The translations under genes were made by a program, and so were the position numbers. The notes under the pieces are model-generated. The model was not told where the DNA came from and made no database searches. It saw only the letters and a program-made list of their open reading frames with translations. A DNA stretch of 64,000 bases from Candidatus Methanomethylophilaceae archaeon (GTDB lineage: Archaea; Thermoplasmatota; Thermoplasmata; Methanomassiliicoccales; Methanomethylophilaceae), in assembly GCA_944322255.1 (NCBI GenBank), contig CALUOK010000002.1, positions 1-64,000 of the forward strand, written 5' to 3'. Every line of letters starts with the position of its first letter. Position 1 is the stretch's first letter. This document shows, piece after piece, positions 5,068 to 26,281 of this stretch.

Positions 5068-7704
<2,637 letters not shown>

Positions 7705-9805: not shown

Positions 9806-11737
9806 TTGGTCGGGACGGGCGACATCGGTCTGGATTCGGTCTATCTAATCATCCTGTTCGCGCCCGCCGCGATCGGCATGCTCTGCGGGCTCTGCGGACG
9901 CTCCGGAAGACTGCCGGGGATCCTGTGCGCCGTGTCCTGCGTCGCCGGCATCCTGTGCTTCCCGTTCCACACGTTCAGCCCCGGGCTCTCCTACGAGCTG
10001 CCCGTGGGATCGTACCTGGGCGCCTATGCGGTCTCCTTCGACCAGCTGGGCTCCATCTTCATATCGGTGTCATCGGTCGTCTTCCTGATGGTCATGACCC
10101 ACATGTCCCATTCCGGCCACGGGTACACGCCGAGGTACTCGGGCATGTGCTGCGCCCTCTTCCTCGCGGTGACCCTGTGCATGTGCGCCGACTCCGCCAT
10201 CCTCCTGCTCCTGGCATGGGAGGCTGTGTCCATGGTCACCTTCCTCATGGCCCGCACAGACGGGAACGAGTCGGCGAGATGGAGGTTCCTGGCGGTGACC
10301 CACATCGGAGGCCTGGTCCTGATGGCCGTCTACGGGTACATGTGGGCGGCCACCGGCAGCGGGTACCTCCACGACTGGCAGGGCGTCGGAGGGATCGTCG
10401 GACCCACGGCGTCCGTCATCATGGTGCTCCTGCTGTTCATCGGCTTCGGAACCAAGCTCGGGACTGTCCCGTTCCACGCCTGGATGCCAGACATGTACGC
10501 CGCATCCCCCACCCACACCACCGTCCTCCTCACCACGGTGTGCTCCAACGCCGCCGTGCTGATGCTATTCAGAGCCGTCTACGCCTACGTCGGTGCCGAC
10601 GGGATGACCGATGCCGGCATGGTCCTGGTGGTCCTGTCTGCGGTCACCGCCCTGTGGGGCGCCATGGAGTCCATGATCCAGACCGAGCCCAAGAGGATCC
10701 TCGCCTACTCCAGCATGGAGAACATGGCCCTGGTGACCCTGTGCCTGTCCCTGGGCCTGGTGTTCTCCCCCAGCAGCCCCAGCCTCACCGCGCTGGTGAT
10801 CCTGGCCGGGCTGCTCCACGCACTCAACCACTCCGTGTTCAAATCTCTCATGCTCCTGACCGTGGACTCCGTGGAGGACGTCACCGGCGAGAGGCAGATC
10901 GACAGACTCGGGGGCCTGGCCAAGGTCCTCCCGGCCCTGTCCGCCGTGGCGTTCGTCGGAGTGGCGTCACTGGCCGCCATCCCGCCCATGAACGGGTTCA
11001 TCAGCGAGTGGCTGATGCTTCAGTCCCTGATCGGCACCGACGCCATCGCCTCAGACCTCAGGGTGGCCATGCCCCTGCTGGTCGCCATGATGGGGGTCTG
11101 CGGGATGATAGTGGCCACGTCCTACGCCAGGCTGTTCGGCTTCATGTTCCTGGGCCGCCCCCGGTCAAAGGGGGCCTCCGAGCCCAGGCCCCTGAGGAAG
11201 GGGTCCATCGGGCCCGTCGCCGTCCTCGCCGGCATGTGCGTCGCCATGGGCATGCTGTCGTACCCGCTGATGGACGCCCTGTCCGAGGGCGCCTGCGCCG
11301 TGGCCGGCATCGACGCCTCCTACAGGGACGGGCTGTCCGGCAGCCTAGAGCCCCTGACCCTGGGGATCATGATATTCGGCACCATCGCGGTGGTGCTGGT
11401 CGCGTCCAGGCTGTTCTCCCGCGGGAGGACGGAGACCGACATCTGGGGATGCGGCGGCACCCTGGACGAGAGGATGCAGTACTCCTCCGAGGGATTCTCG
11501 CAGCCGCTGGTCAGGGTATTCCACCCGTTCTACGGGGACACCTCCGGGATCGAGGGCGGCAGGTACCGCACCAGGTTCCAGGAGCCCTTCGTCAAGTACA
11601 TCTACATCCCCCTGGGCAGCATCCTGCTCAGGACCTCCCTGCAGGTGAAGCGCCTGCAGACCGGGAACATCCAGACCTATCTGGGATACATCCTCGCGAC
11701 GCTGGTCGTCGCCCTCATGGCGGTGAGGCTCCTATGA
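9806..11737 (+). CDS. Hyf-like membrane subunit, HyfB/NuoL family
   Basis: 643 aa, many membrane helices, starting at TTG 9806. It carries the antiporter-type core of complex I and group 4 hydrogenases: Glu139 in LLLAWEAVSMVTF and Lys217 in FGTKLGTVPFHAWMPD, then LAYSSMENM and a lateral C-terminal extension typical of HyfB/HycC. Such subunits move H+ or Na+ across the membrane. First gene of six; its stop overlaps the next start (ATGA at 11734). The HyfB-like assignment is firm at family level, but the complex is probably not a hydrogenase (see the large subunit). Confidence 0.88.
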   Translation: MVGTGDIGLDSVYLIILFAPAAIGMLCGLCGRSGRLPGILCAVSCVAGILCFPFHTFSPGLSYELPVGSYLGAYAVSFDQLGSIFISVSSVVFLMVMTHMSHSGHGYTPRYSGMCCALFLAVTLCMCADSAILLLLAWEAVSMVTFLMARTDGNESARWRFLAVTHIGGLVLMAVYGYMWAATGSGYLHDWQGVGGIVGPTASVIMVLLLFIGFGTKLGTVPFHAWMPDMYAASPTHTTVLLTTVCSNAAVLMLFRAVYAYVGADGMTDAGMVLVVLSAVTALWGAMESMIQTEPKRILAYSSMENMALVTLCLSLGLVFSPSSPSLTALVILAGLLHALNHSVFKSLMLLTVDSVEDVTGERQIDRLGGLAKVLPALSAVAFVGVASLAAIPPMNGFISEWLMLQSLIGTDAIASDLRVAMPLLVAMMGVCGMIVATSYARLFGFMFLGRPRSKGASEPRPLRKGSIGPVAVLAGMCVAMGMLSYPLMDALSEGACAVAGIDASYRDGLSGSLEPLTLGIMIFGTIAVVLVASRLFSRGRTETDIWGCGGTLDERMQYSSEGFSQPLVRVFHPFYGDTSGIEGGRYRTRFQEPFVKYIYIPLGSILLRTSLQVKRLQTGNIQTYLGYILATLVVALMAVRLL

Positions 11738-12666
11738 TCGTGGTGGAGGTCCTCCAGGCGGTGCTTCTCATCGCCCTGGCCCCGCTGATGTCGGGGATCG
11801 TCTCGAAACTCAAGGCCGGGATGCAGAACCGCCCCGGTGCCGGCGTGCTCCAGCCCTACAGGGACCTGTACAAGCTCTGCCGCAAGGGCCGCGCCGTGTC
11901 CGGGAGCTGCTCCTGGATATTCCACGCCGTGCCGGTGGTGTGCATGGCGTCCATGCTCATCCTGGCGGCAATGACGCCGTTCGTCTACACCGGCGTGCTG
12001 GCCCCCTACGGCGGTCTGGTCACCGTGGTCTACATGTTCACCATGTACCGCTTCGCCATGGTCCTCGGCGGACTGGAGGGCGGAAGCACCTTCGGCGGGA
12101 TGGGCAGCAGCCGCGAGATGATGATGTCCGTGCTCATCGAGCCCGCCCTGCTGCTCGGCATCGCGACACTCGCCGTCCTGTCCGGCGCCGGGACCGACAT
12201 GGGGGACATCTCCGAGGCCATAGCCACCATGGGCGTCGCCGCCGTCGGACCCGCCCTCATACTCGCCGCCTGCTCGTTCATGATCACCCTCCTGGCGGAG
12301 AACGCCAGGATCCCGTTCGACAACCCCACCACCCACCTGGAGCTCACCATGGTCCACGAGGCCATGATCCTGGAGTACTCCGGCAAGGAGCTGGCCATGA
12401 TGGAGTACTCCTCCATGCTGAGGATGACCGTGTTCATGGCCATGCTGGGGTCGCTGTTCCTCCCCTGGGGCATATCGTGCACCGGCGAGCCCGTGAGCCT
12501 CGTCGTATCGCTGGTCCTGGCGCTGGCCAAGATGCTGGTCATCGCCTTCGCCATGGCCCTGGTGGAGTCGGTGCTGTGCAAGTCGAGGCTGTTCAAGGTC
12601 CCGAACCTGCTGACCGTGTCGTTCGCCCTGTCGCTGATAGCGATGATATCCCTGTACATTCTGTGA
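11734..12666 (+). CDS. Hyf-like membrane anchor, HyfC/NuoH family
   Basis: 310 aa with about eight membrane helices. NuoH-family features: LKAGMQNRPGAGVLQPYRDL near the N-terminus, ENARIPFDNPTTHLELTMVHE in the middle (the conserved acidic loop beside the quinone or electron-transfer site), and EYSGKELAMMEY. It anchors the soluble arm to the ion-pumping subunits. Coupled to the HyfB-like gene by a 4-bp overlap. Confidence 0.9.
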   Translation: MIVVEVLQAVLLIALAPLMSGIVSKLKAGMQNRPGAGVLQPYRDLYKLCRKGRAVSGSCSWIFHAVPVVCMASMLILAAMTPFVYTGVLAPYGGLVTVVYMFTMYRFAMVLGGLEGGSTFGGMGSSREMMMSVLIEPALLLGIATLAVLSGAGTDMGDISEAIATMGVAAVGPALILAACSFMITLLAENARIPFDNPTTHLELTMVHEAMILEYSGKELAMMEYSSMLRMTVFMAMLGSLFLPWGISCTGEPVSLVVSLVLALAKMLVIAFAMALVESVLCKSRLFKVPNLLTVSFALSLIAMISLYIL

Positions 12667-12676
12667 GGTGCAAGAG

Positions 12677-13336
12677 ATGGACCAACTGATATCCGCGAAC
12701 CTGGTGGACCTGTGCGCCGTCCTGATGCTCCTCACATCGGTGATGGCGGTGGCCACAACCCGCATGAAGCCCCTGATCACGCTGTTCTCCCTGCAGTCGG
12801 TGTTCCTCGCCGCCGAGGCGTTCATCGTGGCGTACACATCCGGGGAGTCCCACATCTACATCATGTGCGCCCTGACCCTCGTACTCAAGGTGGTCGTCAT
12901 GCCCAGGATGCTGCTGTACATCATGGGCAAGATCCACGTGGACAAGGAGGTGGACCTGAGCATCGGCATACCCGGGTCGCTGCTGGCCTCCGGGTTCATG
13001 ATATTCGTGTCGTACTACATCGCCGAGCCCCTGATATCCACCATGGAGACCGTGGAGAGGAGCTGCCTGGCCATCTCCCTGTCGATCATCCTGATCGGGC
13101 TGCTGATGATGTGCACCCGCAGGAAGGCCATCACCGAGACCATCGGCCTGCTGATGATGGAGAACGGCCTGTTCCTGGGCGCCATCGCGCTGTCCCACGG
13201 CATGCCCCTCATCGTCGAGATCGCCGCGTTCTTCGACGTGATGGTGGCGGTGATCATCATCGGCATCTTCGCCAACAGGATCAACAAGTCGTTCAACTCG
13301 GTGGACACCTCGTTCCTCAGGAGGCTGAAGGAATGA
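12677..13336 (+). CDS. Hyf-like membrane subunit, HyfE family
   Basis: 219 aa, hydrophobic, similar in layout to HyfE (fused NuoK-like segment): LITLFSLQSVFLAAEAF and ETIGLLMMENGLFLGAIAL with an intramembrane Glu, plus FFDVMVAVIIIGIFANRI. I chose ATG 12677 because GAGGTG (12665-12670) sits at Shine-Dalgarno distance; GTG 12668 is an alternative. Stop overlaps the next start. Confidence 0.88.
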   Translation: MDQLISANLVDLCAVLMLLTSVMAVATTRMKPLITLFSLQSVFLAAEAFIVAYTSGESHIYIMCALTLVLKVVVMPRMLLYIMGKIHVDKEVDLSIGIPGSLLASGFMIFVSYYIAEPLISTMETVERSCLAISLSIILIGLLMMCTRRKAITETIGLLMMENGLFLGAIALSHGMPLIVEIAAFFDVMVAVIIIGIFANRINKSFNSVDTSFLRRLKE

Positions 13337-14796
13337 ACGCCGACATCCTCGTCCTGGTGGCGGCGATGGTGGCCTCGTCGCTGCTGTGCATCGCGGTCAG
13401 GAACAGGAAGGCCGTCTCGACGGTCATGCCCGCATGCTCCCTGCTCCTCCTGGCCCTGTGCCTGAACCTCTGCGTCCCGGTGCTCGGGGGAGAGGTCGTC
13501 GACGACGGCGTGTTCTGGATGGACCCGCTGTCGGCGGTGTTCATGCTGCTGGTGGCATTCGTGGGGTTCGTCGCGTCCCTCTACTCCCGCGCCTACATCG
13601 GGCTGGAGGCGGAGGAGGGCGTGGTGTCCAGGAGGGAGAACGGAGTCTACTACTCCCTGCTGATCGTCTTCATCTCGGTGATGATGCTCACATTCACCGT
13701 CAGGTCCATGGCCGTGGTCTGGCTCGGCATAGGCGCCACCACGCTGGTCTCCACGTTCCTGGTCGGGTTCTACAGCAGGGACGAGTCCACCGAGGCCGCC
13801 TGGAAGTACATCATACTGTGCTCCGTGGGCATCACCATAGCGCTGTTCGGGCTCACCCTCGTCTACGCGTCCACCGTCGGCGTCATAGACTCCGACCACG
13901 CCCTGGACTGGCCCGCCCTCATGGAGCACGCCTCCGAGCTGGACCCCAACATGATGAGGATGGCCATGGTGCTGATCATCGTGGGCTTCGGGACCAAGGT
14001 GGGGTTCTTCCCCATGCACACCTGGCTTCCCGACGCCCACAGTCAGGCCCCCAGCCCCATCAGCGGGCTGCTGTCGGCGGTGCTGCTGAACTGCGCCATG
14101 TACGGCATACTGAGGTTCTACGGCGTCTCCGAGGTCCTGGACCCCGGGTTCGCCTCCACCATCATGCTGGTGTTCGGGTTCCTGTCCCTGGGAGCCGCGG
14201 CGTTCTTCATCATCACCTCCAGGGACCTGAAGAGGATGCTGGCCTACTCCAGCATAGAGAACATGGGCCTGATCGCCATAGGGTTCGGCATCGGCACGCC
14301 GGTGGCCATCGCCGCGGCGCTGCTGCAGATGACCGCCCACTCCGTGACGAAACCGATCCTGTTCTTCTCCGCCGGCAACGTCATACAGTCATACGGCACC
14401 CGCGAGATGTCCAGGATCAGAGGCGTCTCCAGGTCCATGCCCTTCACGGCCGCCGCGCTTGCCGTGGGCACCCTGGCCATAGTGGGGTGCCCCCCGTTCT
14501 CCGTGTTCGTCGGGGAGCTGTCCCTGATGCTGGGGGCGCTGGACTCCGGCATGGCCTGGGCGGTGGCGCTGACGGTCGCCCTCCTGGCGATAGTCTTCGC
14601 CGGCATGGCCAGGAACGTCTTCCCCATGCTCTCCGGCGAGCCGCCGGAGTACGCCCGCGACCTGAGGGGGTTCTCCCGCACCGCCCCGCTGGTGATCCTC
14701 ATCGTGGCGACCCTGGCCCTCGGCCTGTTCATGGCCGAGTCGGTCTCGGACTGGATCGGCAACGCCGCGTCATCCGTCACGGGGGTGTTCCCGTGA
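13333..14796 (+). CDS. Hyf-like membrane subunit, HyfF/NuoN-M family
   Basis: 487 aa, about 14 membrane helices. FGTKVGFFPMHTWLPDAHSQAPS carries the conserved Lys and the helix-breaking Pro region; LKRMLAYSSIENMGL and LQMTAHSVTKPILFF follow. In the related helix WxxIExTTL I would expect a Glu, but here residue 134 is Gly (WLGIGATTLVSTFLVGFY). If the alignment is right, one proton-channel carboxylate is missing. ATGA overlap with the gene before. Confidence 0.88.
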   Translation: MNADILVLVAAMVASSLLCIAVRNRKAVSTVMPACSLLLLALCLNLCVPVLGGEVVDDGVFWMDPLSAVFMLLVAFVGFVASLYSRAYIGLEAEEGVVSRRENGVYYSLLIVFISVMMLTFTVRSMAVVWLGIGATTLVSTFLVGFYSRDESTEAAWKYIILCSVGITIALFGLTLVYASTVGVIDSDHALDWPALMEHASELDPNMMRMAMVLIIVGFGTKVGFFPMHTWLPDAHSQAPSPISGLLSAVLLNCAMYGILRFYGVSEVLDPGFASTIMLVFGFLSLGAAAFFIITSRDLKRMLAYSSIENMGLIAIGFGIGTPVAIAAALLQMTAHSVTKPILFFSAGNVIQSYGTREMSRIRGVSRSMPFTAAALAVGTLAIVGCPPFSVFVGELSLMLGALDSGMAWAVALTVALLAIVFAGMARNVFPMLSGEPPEYARDLRGFSRTAPLVILIVATLALGLFMAESVSDWIGNAASSVTGVFP

Positions 14797-16241
14797 TCTC
14801 GCAGGTTCGGACCGACCGCGAGGGCTTCAGGGCCTCCGCCATCGACCTGGACTCCGACGGCTACCGCCTGATGGACATGTTCACCGAGGAGCCCTTCGGG
14901 GACGCGGGCGCGGTGTCCGCCCTCTTCAGGAGGGGGGACGACGTCGTCAGGCTGTGGTACCCCACCGACGGCCGCGGCGTCACGCTCTCCAGGGACATCC
15001 CCTGCGCGTCCCCCTTCGAGAGGAGGATGGCCGAGATGTCCGGCATCACGTTCGACATGGGGACGGACCCCATAGTCTACCGCAGGAGGGGCGACGGACA
15101 CCCCCTGCAGAAAACCCCATATGATAGATCCACGGAGGTCCGCATCCCCCTGAAGCCCAACTCCACCGTGGGGGACGACGTATTCGAGATCCCCGTGGGC
15201 CCTGTGCACGCGGGCATCATCGAGCCCGGCCACTTCAGGTTCAGCGTGGCCGGGGAGCCCGTCATAGAGCTGAACCCCAGTCTGGGCTACACCCACCGCG
15301 GCATCGAGAAGCTGATGGAGGTGCCGGCCGGCAGGGACATGTCCCGCCTGGTGGAGAGGATCTCCGGGGACACCTGCGTGGCCAACTGCATCGCGTACGC
15401 CGAGATCATGGAGTCCGACACCCGGATACCGCGCAGGGCCAGGATCATACGCGTGCTGATGGCCGAGATGGAGAGGCTTTACAACCACATCGGCGCCGTC
15501 ACCGGGATCTGCACCGACACCGCCTTCAACGTCCCGTCTGCCATGGGCTCCGGGATCCAGGAGAGGGTGTTCAGGATGAACATGAGCCTGACCCGCCACA
15601 GGCAGCTGATGAACTGCGTCGTGCCGGGAGGGGTCCGCAGGGACATCCCGGACTCCAGGCTCAGGGAGCTGGACGACTTCCTCATCAGACTGAAGTTCGA
15701 CCTGATGGACCTGACCGACAGGATGATGGACAGCCCGGCCCTCCAGGACCGTCTGGAGGGGACCGGCGTGCTGACCAACGCCAAGGCCGTCGGGATCGGG
15801 GCCGTGGGCCCCATAGCCAGAGCCAGCGGCGTCAGGTCCGACGTGAGGAGGGAGCTGGATTACGAGTGCTACGGGGACCTGGGCCTGAACCTGTGCTCCG
15901 ACGACAGGGGCGACGTGAACGCCAGGACCATGGTCAGGATCGGGGAGATCTACGAGTCGATCAACCTGGTCCACCAGTGCGCCGAGATGCTGGAGCCGGG
16001 GGAGACCAGGGTGAGGGCGGTGCCGTCTGACGGGTTCCACTGCTCCGTGGTGGAGGCCCCGAGAGGGGAGCTGGTGCACTCCGCCGTCGTCCGCGACGGG
16101 AGGGTCTGGAGGTACAGCGTGCGCGACCCGTCCTTCGTGAACTGGTTCGGCATGTGCCACGCCGTCCCCGGGAACGTGGTCCCGGACTTCCCGCTGATCA
16201 ACAAGAGCTTCGGGCTCTCCTACGCGGGGAACGACCTCTGA
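14793..16241 (+). CDS. Hyf-like large subunit (HyfG/NuoCD family) lacking nickel ligands
   Basis: 482 aa: an N-terminal NuoC-like part (~1-125) fused to a NuoD-like part (GPVHAGIIEPGHFRF, LGYTHRGIEKLME). Real group 4 hydrogenases have RICGxC and DPCxxC, whose four Cys bind Ni-Fe. Here the first site reads ERISGDTCVANC (Ser191 and Thr194 where Cys is needed) and the second RDPSFVNWF (Ser447 and Asn450). All four ligands are therefore replaced, and Cys195/Cys199 sit at the wrong spacing. The protein should still fold and couple to the membrane arm, as in NuoD or MbxL, but should not activate H2. Its true electron acceptor is unknown. Confidence 0.85.
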   Translation: MISQVRTDREGFRASAIDLDSDGYRLMDMFTEEPFGDAGAVSALFRRGDDVVRLWYPTDGRGVTLSRDIPCASPFERRMAEMSGITFDMGTDPIVYRRRGDGHPLQKTPYDRSTEVRIPLKPNSTVGDDVFEIPVGPVHAGIIEPGHFRFSVAGEPVIELNPSLGYTHRGIEKLMEVPAGRDMSRLVERISGDTCVANCIAYAEIMESDTRIPRRARIIRVLMAEMERLYNHIGAVTGICTDTAFNVPSAMGSGIQERVFRMNMSLTRHRQLMNCVVPGGVRRDIPDSRLRELDDFLIRLKFDLMDLTDRMMDSPALQDRLEGTGVLTNAKAVGIGAVGPIARASGVRSDVRRELDYECYGDLGLNLCSDDRGDVNARTMVRIGEIYESINLVHQCAEMLEPGETRVRAVPSDGFHCSVVEAPRGELVHSAVVRDGRVWRYSVRDPSFVNWFGMCHAVPGNVVPDFPLINKSFGLSYAGNDL

Positions 16242-16247
16242 GGTGAG

Positions 16248-16997
16248 ATGATGTTCGCTACGAGTCTTTCCAATCTTGTCGGCAGGGGGAGGAACACCGT
16301 CCCCGCCGACGACATCATGGACGGCAGGGGCACCATGCCCATGTCGTCTGAACGGTGCACCGGATGCGGGTCCTGCGCGGAAAACTGCCCCACCGCCGCG
16401 ATATCCATATCCGACGACGGATGGTCGGTGGACCTGGGCAGGTGCATATTCTGCATGGACTGCGCCATGGTCTGCCCCGCCGATGCGATAGCCGAGGTCC
16501 CGGCACCCGACTACGCCCTGTCCAGGGACGACCTGGTGGTCCGCAGGGAGACCGACGTCGCCTCCATCGAGGGGGTGCTGGACGAACGCACCCGCAGGAT
16601 GTTCTCCGAATCACTGGCGATACGCGAGCTGGACACCGGGTCCTGCAACGCGTGCGAGATCGAGCTCAACTGCATGTCCAACCAGTTCTACGACGCCCAC
16701 AGGTTCGGGATCAAGGTTGTGGCCTCCCCGCGCCACGCGGACGCGCTTGTCGTCACGGGACCGATGGCCGAGAACATGAGGGAGGCCGCGGTCAGGACGG
16801 ACGAGGCGACGCCCTCCCCGAAGCTGATCGTCGCCAACGGCACCTGCGCCATATCCGGCGGGGTGTTCGTGGGAGGCGACGTGGCGCCGTCGGGGATCTC
16901 CGACGTGCTGGAGCCCCACATCTACATCATCGGATGCCCTCCGTCGCCCGACAGGGTCATCCGCTCGTTGGCCAAGGCCCTCGGGATGCGTCACTGA
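16248..16997 (+). CDS. Fusion of 2[4Fe-4S] ferredoxin and NuoB/HyfI-like small subunit
   Basis: 249 aa. Residues 37-47 and 66-76 are two classic cluster motifs (CTGCGSCAENCP, CIFCMDCAMVCP), equal to HyfH/NuoI. Residues ~120-249 are a NuoB-type subunit with Cys133 and Cys136 (GSCNAC), Cys200 (NGTCAISGG) and Cys230 (IIGCPPSPD), the four ligands of cluster N2. HyfH and HyfI are usually separate proteins; here one chain carries the whole iron-sulfur wire. Electrons would come from ferredoxin or an unknown donor; no NADH or F420 module is in the operon. Start ATG 16248 has GAGGTGA before it. Confidence 0.88.
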   Translation: MMFATSLSNLVGRGRNTVPADDIMDGRGTMPMSSERCTGCGSCAENCPTAAISISDDGWSVDLGRCIFCMDCAMVCPADAIAEVPAPDYALSRDDLVVRRETDVASIEGVLDERTRRMFSESLAIRELDTGSCNACEIELNCMSNQFYDAHRFGIKVVASPRHADALVVTGPMAENMREAAVRTDEATPSPKLIVANGTCAISGGVFVGGDVAPSGISDVLEPHIYIIGCPPSPDRVIRSLAKALGMRH

Positions 16998-17998
16998 ACG
17001 ACCACGACGGTGCACTTGGCGTTGGCCACTATGGAGTTGGACACGCTGCCCATGATGACCCTGTCCAGGGACGTCTTCCCGGACCTGCCGACGAATATGG
17101 TGCCGCAGCCGAACCTGGAGGCGGCGCTGAGGATCTCCGCATCGGGGACCCCGGACTCCACTATGACGTGCGCATCAGCCCCTCCGGCCCTCGCCTTCGC
17201 GAGTGCGGCGTCCGCGAATGAATGGGTGCGGTCGATGTCCGCCTGGGTCTCGGACCCCCGGGGTATGACGGACAGGATGTACAGCTTCTCGCCGTGGAGG
17301 ACCGCCTCGGATATGGCGTGGTCCAGGGCCTTCTCCGTGTTCTCCCTTCCGTCGTAGGCAACCAGCATGGTCATGCCCACCGCGTATGTCGGAGGGGATA
17401 TGAATGTGTCGAATCGGCCTCGCAGGAACATCGTGTCCGAGACTATCGTCGGGGTCTTCTTCGAAAAAGCGATCCCGTACATCAGGACCTTTCCAGACAT
17501 GCCGTTCGCGTAGTCGTTGTCACGTATCTGCTTCAGCGCCCCCTGGGCCAGTGCCATCATGCGTTCCTCGGTCGGACGGTCCTCCCTGGTGTGCTTCACC
17601 TCTATGATGATGTTCGGCCCTACGCCCCTCTTGCGCTTCAGCCTTATGTCGTGGTATCCTTCGCCTGATTCGAAGTCCGCCGTGATGTCGTAGTTGCCGA
17701 ACAGGTTCATCAGCAGTCCAGCGATGAACGCCTGGTACGGGTACTCGTTCACGAGGATCCTGCCACTGATCACGCGCTCGAACAGATCCTTCATGTTGAG
17801 ACCTATGGCCTCCTCATCATCGGAGAGGATGGCCTTGGACAGCTCCTTCATCGCACCGCTCATGCCATCGCACCCCAGTCTGTCGATGACCATGTCGCCG
17901 TACACCCCGTACATCTCCCTGTTGGGGATGCGGAGCGAATACCTTTCACCGTCGGGGATGGCGGTGAGGTGTCCTGAGAATGCGAGGACGCTGTACAC
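16991..17998 (-). pseudogene. PD-(D/E)XK C-terminal part of a broken AAA gene, fused to a universal stress protein domain
   Basis: The open frame reaches upstream to about 18107, where it should join the AAA gene; GTG 17998, preceded by AAGGAG, could start it now. Residues 1-~180 match the C-terminal nuclease-like domain (DUF1703 type) that follows AAA-ATPase_like domains, with YHDIRLKRK and IIIEVKHT as active-site residues. From Met209 (MTMLVAYDGREN) a complete UspA domain follows, including the nucleotide site GRSGKTSLDRVIMGS (G-x2-G-x9-GS). The ~27 residues between them look like translated spacer, so the stress gene may once have been separate, starting at 17374. The gene end overlaps the convergent Hyf-like operon by 7 bp. 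Confidence 0.7.
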
Positions 17999-25195: not shown

Positions 25196-26281
25196 TCAGT
25201 ACCTCTTGGGTCCGAGCCTGTAGGCGATGCTGCAGTTGCCCTCGGCGGAGACCATGCAGGGCCCCATGGGGTTCATGGGCTTGCAGACCTTCCCGAACAT
25301 GGGGCACTCCTCCGATCTGATCAGTCCCCTCAGGACGTCTCCGCACCTGCATCCCCTGGCCTCCACATCCACCTCGGGCGTGAGCTTCAGGATGTCCTCG
25401 TGGACCTTGGTGGCGTCGTGGTCCTGGAACTCGGGCTTCAGGGCCAGGGCGCTCTTCGGGATCACCGGGAACCCTCTCCAGGCGCGGTCCACCGGCTCGA
25501 AGGTGTCCCACATCAGGTCCAGCGCGGTGGGGTTGCCCTCCGGCCTGACCAGCCTGGTGTACTCGTTCTCCACCTCATGCCTGCCCTCCTTGAGCTGCTT
25601 GCAGAGCATGTAGCAGGACATCAGGATGTCCAGGGGCTCGAACCCGGCGATGACCTGCGGGACGTGGTGCGCCTCGGAGACCGGCTCGAACATCTTCGTG
25701 CCGGTGATGACGGCCACATGGCCGGGCATGATGAACCCGTCGATCCTGTTCTCCCCCAGGTCGAAGAGGGCCTGGATGATGGGAGGGCAGATCCTGTGGC
25801 AGCTGTAGACGCTGAAGTTCTCGGGGCAGTCGTCCTTGTGGAGCGGGACGGCGGTGGACGGGGCGGTGGTCTCGAACCCCACGCCCACGAAGACCAGCGG
25901 CTTGTCCGGCTGGTCCCTGGCCATCTGGACGGCGTCGTCGATGGAGTAGACGATCCTGACGTCGGCGCCGTCGGCCTTGGCGTCGAAGAGGGAGCCTGCG
26001 GTGGTGGGGACCCTCATCATGTCGCCGAACGCCGTCACGGTCACGCCGTTCCTGGCCAGGGTGATCGCCTCCGCGACCTCCCTGCTGGTGGTGACGCACA
26101 CGGGGCATCCGGGACCCTGGGCGATGTGGACGCCGACGTCCTCGAGCATCTCCTCGAGCCCGAAGCGCACGATCGTGTCCTGGTGGGTTCCGCAGATGTG
26201 CATGAGTCTGACATCCACGTTCATCTCCCCGATGCGCTCTAGGATCTTCTTCGCCGTCTGCTCGTCCCTGTACTTGAACAT
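25196..26281 (-). CDS. hypD: Hydrogenase maturation protein HypD
   Basis: 361 aa, standard length. Shows the HypD signatures LMHICGTHQDTI, GPGCPVCVT, GFETTAPSTA and the C-terminal Cys set that holds a [4Fe-4S] cluster (RGCRCGDV ... CPMFGKVC). With HypC it assembles the Fe(CN)2CO group of NiFe hydrogenases. Start overlaps the hypA stop by one base (TGATG). Confidence 0.96.
   Translation of the reverse strand: MFKYRDEQTAKKILERIGEMNVDVRLMHICGTHQDTIVRFGLEEMLEDVGVHIAQGPGCPVCVTTSREVAEAITLARNGVTVTAFGDMMRVPTTAGSLFDAKADGADVRIVYSIDDAVQMARDQPDKPLVFVGVGFETTAPSTAVPLHKDDCPENFSVYSCHRICPPIIQALFDLGENRIDGFIMPGHVAVITGTKMFEPVSEAHHVPQVIAGFEPLDILMSCYMLCKQLKEGRHEVENEYTRLVRPEGNPTALDLMWDTFEPVDRAWRGFPVIPKSALALKPEFQDHDATKVHEDILKLTPEVDVEARGCRCGDVLRGLIRSEECPMFGKVCKPMNPMGPCMVSAEGNCSIAYRLGPKRY

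Follow-up and report, generated by a model that had tools for sequence, protein, structure and literature searches.

An energy-converting hydrogenase-related (Ehr) complex without Ni-Fe ligands in the Methanomassiliicoccales and clues to its electron acceptor

The operon at positions 9806-16997 of the window, a 64,000-nucleotide stretch of DNA from a Candidatus Methanomethylophilaceae archaeon, encodes an energy-converting hydrogenase-related (Ehr) complex, a member of a family that is already known. As had been claimed in an initial annotation of this DNA, all four cysteines that would bind the Ni-Fe centre are missing from the large subunit, where Ser191, Thr194, Ser476, and Gly479 stand in their place. 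The sequences suggest that the complex is most likely a descendant of the group 4 [NiFe] hydrogenases that has no Ni-Fe centre.

The operon and its relatives

The operon consists of six packed genes on the forward strand, all of which have intact reading frames. The first gene (9806-11737) codes for a HyfB-like antiporter-type membrane subunit of 643 amino acids (Pfam Proton_antipo_M, 1.3e-39), for which the best NCBIfam match is hydrogenase 4 subunit B (5.8e-103). Its stop codon is overlapped by the ATG start codon at 11734 of the second gene (11734-12666), which encodes a membrane subunit similar to HyfC and NuoH (Pfam NADHdh, 1.1e-39, scanned from 11740). These are followed by the genes for a HyfE-like membrane subunit of 222 amino acids (12668-13336; NCBIfam hydrogenase 4 membrane subunit, 5.6e-28) and a HyfF-like antiporter-type membrane subunit of 486 amino acids (13336-14796; Pfam Proton_antipo_M, 4.5e-54; NCBIfam hydrogenase 4 subunit F, 3.1e-139). 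The large subunit, which resembles NuoC/NuoD and HycE/HyfG, is encoded by the fifth gene (14793-16241), an uninterrupted frame of 482 codons with a GTG start at 14793 that overlaps the stop of the HyfF-like gene at 14796. It matches Pfam Complex1_49kDa (3.7e-42) and, weakly, NiFeSe_Hases, and the closest solved sequence is subunit 5 of the formate hydrogenlyase of E. coli (HycE, 2.4e-47). The first match to its predicted fold is 7z0s_E; residues 60-168 were predicted with low confidence, and we therefore base no argument about a cavity on this model. The sixth gene (16248-16997) encodes the small subunit, in which two [4Fe-4S] ferredoxin motifs are fused to a NuoB/HycG-like domain (Pfam Oxidored_q6, 6.4e-26; Fer4, 4.5e-13).

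The Hyf-type gene order proposed in the initial annotation agrees with these Pfam and NCBIfam assignments and recurs in the relatives. Equally in line with that annotation, neither an NADH (NuoEFG) nor an F420 (FpoF) input module was found in the operon or in the genes adjoining it, and the operon contains no homologs of HyfA, HyfD, or FdhF. The upstream flank holds an ATPase_2/DUF234 gene that is unrelated to Ehr, and an aconitase gene (5068-7704, forward strand) located farther upstream is common to several genomes of the same genus. A downstream open reading frame (16991-17998, reverse strand), likewise unrelated to Ehr, combines a PDDEXK_9 segment and a universal stress protein (Usp) domain in one frame. 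Since Usp-like reading frames are located downstream of Ehr in many relatives, it may represent an insertion fused to Usp. The hydrogenase maturation gene hypD (25196-26281, reverse strand), about 8 kb from the Ehr operon, presumably serves the other hydrogenases of this genome.

To place the large subunit among the relatives of the group 4 hydrogenases, a check proposed in the initial annotation, we inferred a phylogeny from 104 large subunits with a quick method, SH-aLRT values being the only measure of support and the Geobacter type EhrL and the MbxL proteins of the Thermococcales being left out. The large subunit encoded in the window falls in a clade of 72 sequences without Ni-Fe ligands (support 99), where it groups with the Ehr large subunits and apart from the ligand-bearing hydrogenases. 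The next sequences outside the Ehr clade are ligand-bearing proteins from Brocadiaceae, Methylococcaceae, and Desulfotomaculaceae/Peptococcaceae, followed by HycE/HyfG, Ech, and Fpo/Nuo. Ten loci just outside the clade, from Brocadiaceae, relatives of Desulfotomaculum, and one Methylococcaceae MAG, have ligand-bearing or near-intact sites, and because they adjoin the Ehr clade, they mark the step before the loss of the ligands.

The operon also has the gene content of Ehr, with antiporter-type, NuoH-like, and Fe-S small subunits in a Hyf-like arrangement. The Ehr complexes of Nitrospira, Methanoperedens, Methylomirabilis, CPR bacteria, and Methanoplasma share with it both this order and the signature SGD...LSYxGND in place of the two CxxC motifs. 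They differ from it in that the HyfF-like subunit of the window lineage has no glutamic acid in TM5, and in that several relatives carry the ferredoxin-type motifs, here fused to the small subunit, in a separate reading frame. Hydrogenase-4 and formate hydrogenlyase (HyfG, HycE), to which the closest solved structure (7z0s) belongs, resemble Ehr in gene order and subunits, and the ligand-bearing sister group in Brocadiaceae, Methylococcaceae, and Desulfotomaculum has the PINKSF..Y and PVHAGIIEPGHFR-type motifs in common with Ehr. However, both groups have kept the two CxxC motifs, and HycE/HyfG also have C-terminal extensions that Ehr lacks. The Fpo-like complex of the same genome, an 11-subunit complex I, belongs like Ehr to the complex I family but forms a separate clade in the tree.

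PMC6147122 cites Coppi 2005 for the description of Ehr in Geobacter and Marreiros 2013 for its link to complex I. Ehr is excluded from HydDB as a non-hydrogenase family (PMC5037454). It has also been discussed in the literature for Riflemargulisbacteria, Saganbacteria, and ammonia oxidisers. In the passages that deal with it, Speth and Orphan 2018 (PMC6147122) note its presence in the Methanomassiliicoccales genome MALP and give its function as unknown. We identified Ehr in 58 of 147 genomes of this order, representing 19 of 30 genera. Thus, the suggestion that the operon encodes an additional energy-conserving complex of this archaeal group holds in the sense of an extra complex-I-like machine, but not in the sense of an undescribed one. 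The copies from the order form a single clade (support 97), the branching of which broadly follows the host families (f6, f2, and f1, the last of which contains the window), suggesting that Ehr is probably ancestral in the order and has often been lost. Consistent with losses, it is patchy in the genus of the window, where only a few genomes contain it. The same topology gives no support for a recent transfer into this genome. One genome carries two Ehr copies on different contigs (C96 and C16), which could be due to a duplication or to an assembly effect.

The former Ni-Fe sites and the acceptor pocket

The former ligand sites were placed with HMMER alignments to HycE, MbhL, and Nqo4 and with an alignment of the homologs from relatives. 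In the proximal site, ERISGDT (residues 188-194; 15354-15374, forward strand), Ser191 and Thr194 occupy the positions of both cysteines in RxCGxC, as had been read from the sequence. The distal site had been placed at DPSFVN (residues 445-450; 16125-16142, forward strand), with Ser447 and Asn450 as the replaced residues, but this is not a ligand site. The corresponding segment reads RAATYAN, REPTFPN, or SPSFCN/SASHCN in HycE, MbhL, and the cysteine-bearing proteins of Jettenia, Brocadia, and Desulforamulus, and relatives with SPSFCN/SASHCN at this position have both CxxC motifs, the distal one being located farther downstream. The C-terminal FPLINKSFGLSYAGNDL of the window protein instead aligns with FPLINKSFELCYSCTDL of Jettenia/Brocadia, which contains LCYSCTD, and with the DPCYSCTD segment of HycE/HyfG. 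The distal ligands were thus lost at Ser476 and Gly479, within LSYAGND (residues 475-481; 16215-16235, forward strand). With both of the Ni-Fe-binding CxxC motifs of group 4 [NiFe] hydrogenases replaced, the absence of ligands supports the earlier prediction that the complex would perform no H2 chemistry, as far as the hydrogenase mechanism is concerned.

The replaced residues are conserved in the relatives. Among 80 loci from many phyla, Ser191 and Asp193 are present in all 71 rows without a cysteine motif, and Ser476 and Gly479 are almost invariant in the same rows, while position 194 is occupied by T, S, N, or E. The loci were collected with the patterns PDFPL[IV]NK and [VI]RD[PA]SFxNW, so that the search itself biases the conservation of these two stretches; residues 191, 193, 476, and 479 are located outside both. 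Within the order, position 191 is a serine in every aligned large subunit except one, which has a cysteine, Asp193 is present in all, and Ser476 and Gly479 are present in all that reach the end of the protein. Since the whole Ehr clade, Nitrospira, Methanoperedens, and the CPR bacteria included, shows hardly any variation at the altered site, we reject a local mutation or sequencing error, an explanation that the initial annotation had proposed to check in related genomes.

The four N2-type cysteines of the small subunit (C133, C136, C200, and C230) are kept, as indicated by the conservation comparison, and so are both ferredoxin-type motifs, suggesting that electrons from ferredoxin can still reach the interface of the subunits. 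The end of this path has been remodelled. The positions that align with His38 and Tyr87 of T. thermophilus, which we take to be the quinone-ligand residues, are Ile143 and Gly192 in the Ehr large subunit, whereas the Fpo-like subunit of the same genome reads GPQHPFSHG and DRLCYA and has kept both ligands. The likeness to NuoD that had been drawn earlier is consequently valid for the fold but not for the quinone-ligand residues that characterise complex I and Fpo. The alignments suggest that the pocket differs from both known types and is neither a Ni-Fe nor a quinone site.

The membrane arm and the gene neighborhood

The HyfB-like subunit has kept Glu139 in TM5, Lys217 in TM7, and Glu401 in TM12, and the HyfC/NuoH-like subunit has retained its conserved acidic and basic residues, which makes ion pumping by Ehr plausible. 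The HyfF-like subunit has kept Lys221 in TM7 and Glu394 in TM12, but contains a glycine at codon 133 (13732-13734, forward strand), where sequence comparison places the TM5 glutamic acid equivalent to E144 of NuoM. A glutamic acid occupies this column in 92 of the 92 other Ehr/Hyf sequences that have it, as well as in HyfB, HyfD, HyfF, HycC, NuoL, NuoM, and NuoN of E. coli and in the antiporter subunits of the Fpo-like and Ech complexes of the window genome. The loss is common to five genera of family f1 (g1, in which one sequence has an alanine, g3, g5, g6, and g26), while the residue is kept in g4, g21, g22, and g23 and in families f2 and f6. In the subclade without it, the nearby conserved His at HyfF position 331 is mostly replaced by Gln. 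In complex I, a conserved ion pair links the TM5 glutamic acid to the TM7 lysine, and the charged residues of the axis are essential for catalysis (PMC9802314). It is a fair inference that pumping by the HyfF-like subunit is reduced in the window lineage, and the loss weakens the claim of pumping for this lineage.

A search for co-occurring redox genes, as suggested in the initial annotation, revealed a candidate partner in two families of the order, but none shared more broadly. In families f2 and f6, a gene for an HdrD-type protein with two CCG domains (HdrD1) is located head-to-head with, and upstream of, the Ehr operon. The two genes are divergent and separated by 6.1-7.8 kb, measured from HdrD1 to the large subunit gene, in 19 of the 20 f2/f6 genomes that have HdrD1 and EhrL on one contig; in the remaining genome, the distance is 20.7 kb. 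Some of the ten head-to-head loci that we inspected have a rubrerythrin-like gene in between. No linkage of HdrD1 to Ehr was seen in family f1, where the genes are more than 500 kb apart in two genomes (G033 and G072) and on separate contigs in the window genome. G033 does have an HdrD-like match close to Ehr, but its identity is only 24%, and it does not represent HdrD1. Furthermore, HdrD1 is also present in genomes without Ehr, and in one genome without a close Ehr match (G040), it is located near Ech.

The order has no HdrE, and it has been proposed that a membrane complex oxidising ferredoxin supplies HdrD with electrons, a role that has been assigned to the Fpo-like complex (PMC7374477). 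The only publication that we found to name HdrD, Ehr, and the order together is Speth and Orphan 2018, and its passages on these are silent on the gene pairing. In six f6 loci, an Ech-type operon with intact CxxC motifs follows directly after the Ehr operon. Ech is rejected as a general obligate partner, as it follows Ehr in f6 only and two Ehr-bearing genomes (G019 and G028) have no Ech-like match. Ten flanking proteins at six loci, five of which are from outside the Methanomassiliicoccales, include regulators, a porin, a kinase, a transporter, a VWA protein, and an aconitase, and no shared redox partner was found among them.

A possible role in heterodisulfide reduction

We tentatively propose, at somewhat less than an even chance, that Ehr pumps ions by oxidising ferredoxin and passes the electrons on to HdrD. 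Electrons from reduced ferredoxin would travel through the fused small subunit, along its two [4Fe-4S] motifs and its N2-like cluster, to an acceptor at the remodelled pocket between the small and large subunits, rather than to protons or to a quinone in a complex-I-type binding mode. The released energy would drive ion pumping through the HyfB/HyfC/HyfF-type membrane arm. In the Methanomassiliicoccales, the acceptor would most likely be the heterodisulfide reductase HdrD, acting on CoM-S-S-CoB in parallel to the Fpo-like complex; we infer this from the gene neighborhood, most indirectly for the window lineage. The ligand-less Ehr clade, the cluster cysteines, the mostly kept pump residues, the HdrD1 pairing in f2 and f6, and the absence of quinone ligands are all consistent with this proposal. 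Against HdrD as the acceptor speak the unlinked HdrD1 in f1, its presence in genomes without Ehr, and its assignment to the Fpo-like complex in the literature. Moreover, the CoM/CoB heterodisulfide cannot serve bacterial Ehr, which would make HdrD a lineage-specific partner.

The same fold as in NuoD and the conserved NuoH-like subunit would also suit the reduction of a membrane-soluble carrier, similar to methanophenazine or a quinone, that feeds other enzymes, as in complex I and Fpo. Genes for the synthesis of a liposoluble carrier have been reported in three Methanomassiliicoccales genomes (PMC4153887), but with Ile143 and Gly192 in place of ligands that the Fpo-like subunit of this very genome has kept, we regard this as rather improbable. 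It is unlikely that Ehr runs in reverse in vivo, with the ion-motive force driving the reduction of ferredoxin for biosynthesis from a less reducing donor. The fused ferredoxin-type motifs could work either way, and the reversibility of Ech has been discussed for the order (PMC4153887), but the operon contains no electron-donor module, and the proposed source of reduced ferredoxin in these organisms is Mvh/HdrABC (PMC7374477).

The Mbx/Mbs complexes of the Thermococcales are ferredoxin-type relatives of complex I with an altered Ni-Fe site, and the reduction of sulfur compounds such as polysulfide, proposed for them, could be extended to Ehr. The solved chain 6u8y_L, presumably Mbs, is a homolog of the Ehr large subunit (5.2e-27). 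This match is weaker than those to HycE and MbhL, MbxL lies outside the sample of the tree, and the neighborhood of Ehr revealed no sulfur genes, making such a role very unlikely. The patchy occurrence of Ehr in the genus would fit a decayed or misread hydrogenase, whose cysteines were lost recently or in error and whose operon is on its way out. Given that the residues in their place are conserved across phyla and that the six packed reading frames are intact, this already disfavoured explanation is extremely improbable.

Returning to the ferredoxin-oxidising pump that feeds HdrD, a more far-reaching version, which we consider doubtful, is that Ehr of the Methanomassiliicoccales represents a third kind of complex I relative. 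It would pump ions at the expense of ferredoxin oxidation and hand the electrons directly to HdrD, at a pocket serving as neither a Ni-Fe nor a quinone site, and in the window lineage, where one of the two antiporter-like subunits lacks the channel glutamic acid, the coupling stoichiometry would have changed.

Ehr is widespread in both bacteria and archaea, and the pocket, the pairing with HdrD in relatives, and the replacement of the TM5 glutamic acid by glycine provide three handles on its acceptor. The finding is of value for these clues and does not represent a new class of complex. Should HdrD receive its electrons from Ehr, this complex would account for part of the membrane ferredoxin:heterodisulfide activity that is now attributed to the Fpo-like complex.
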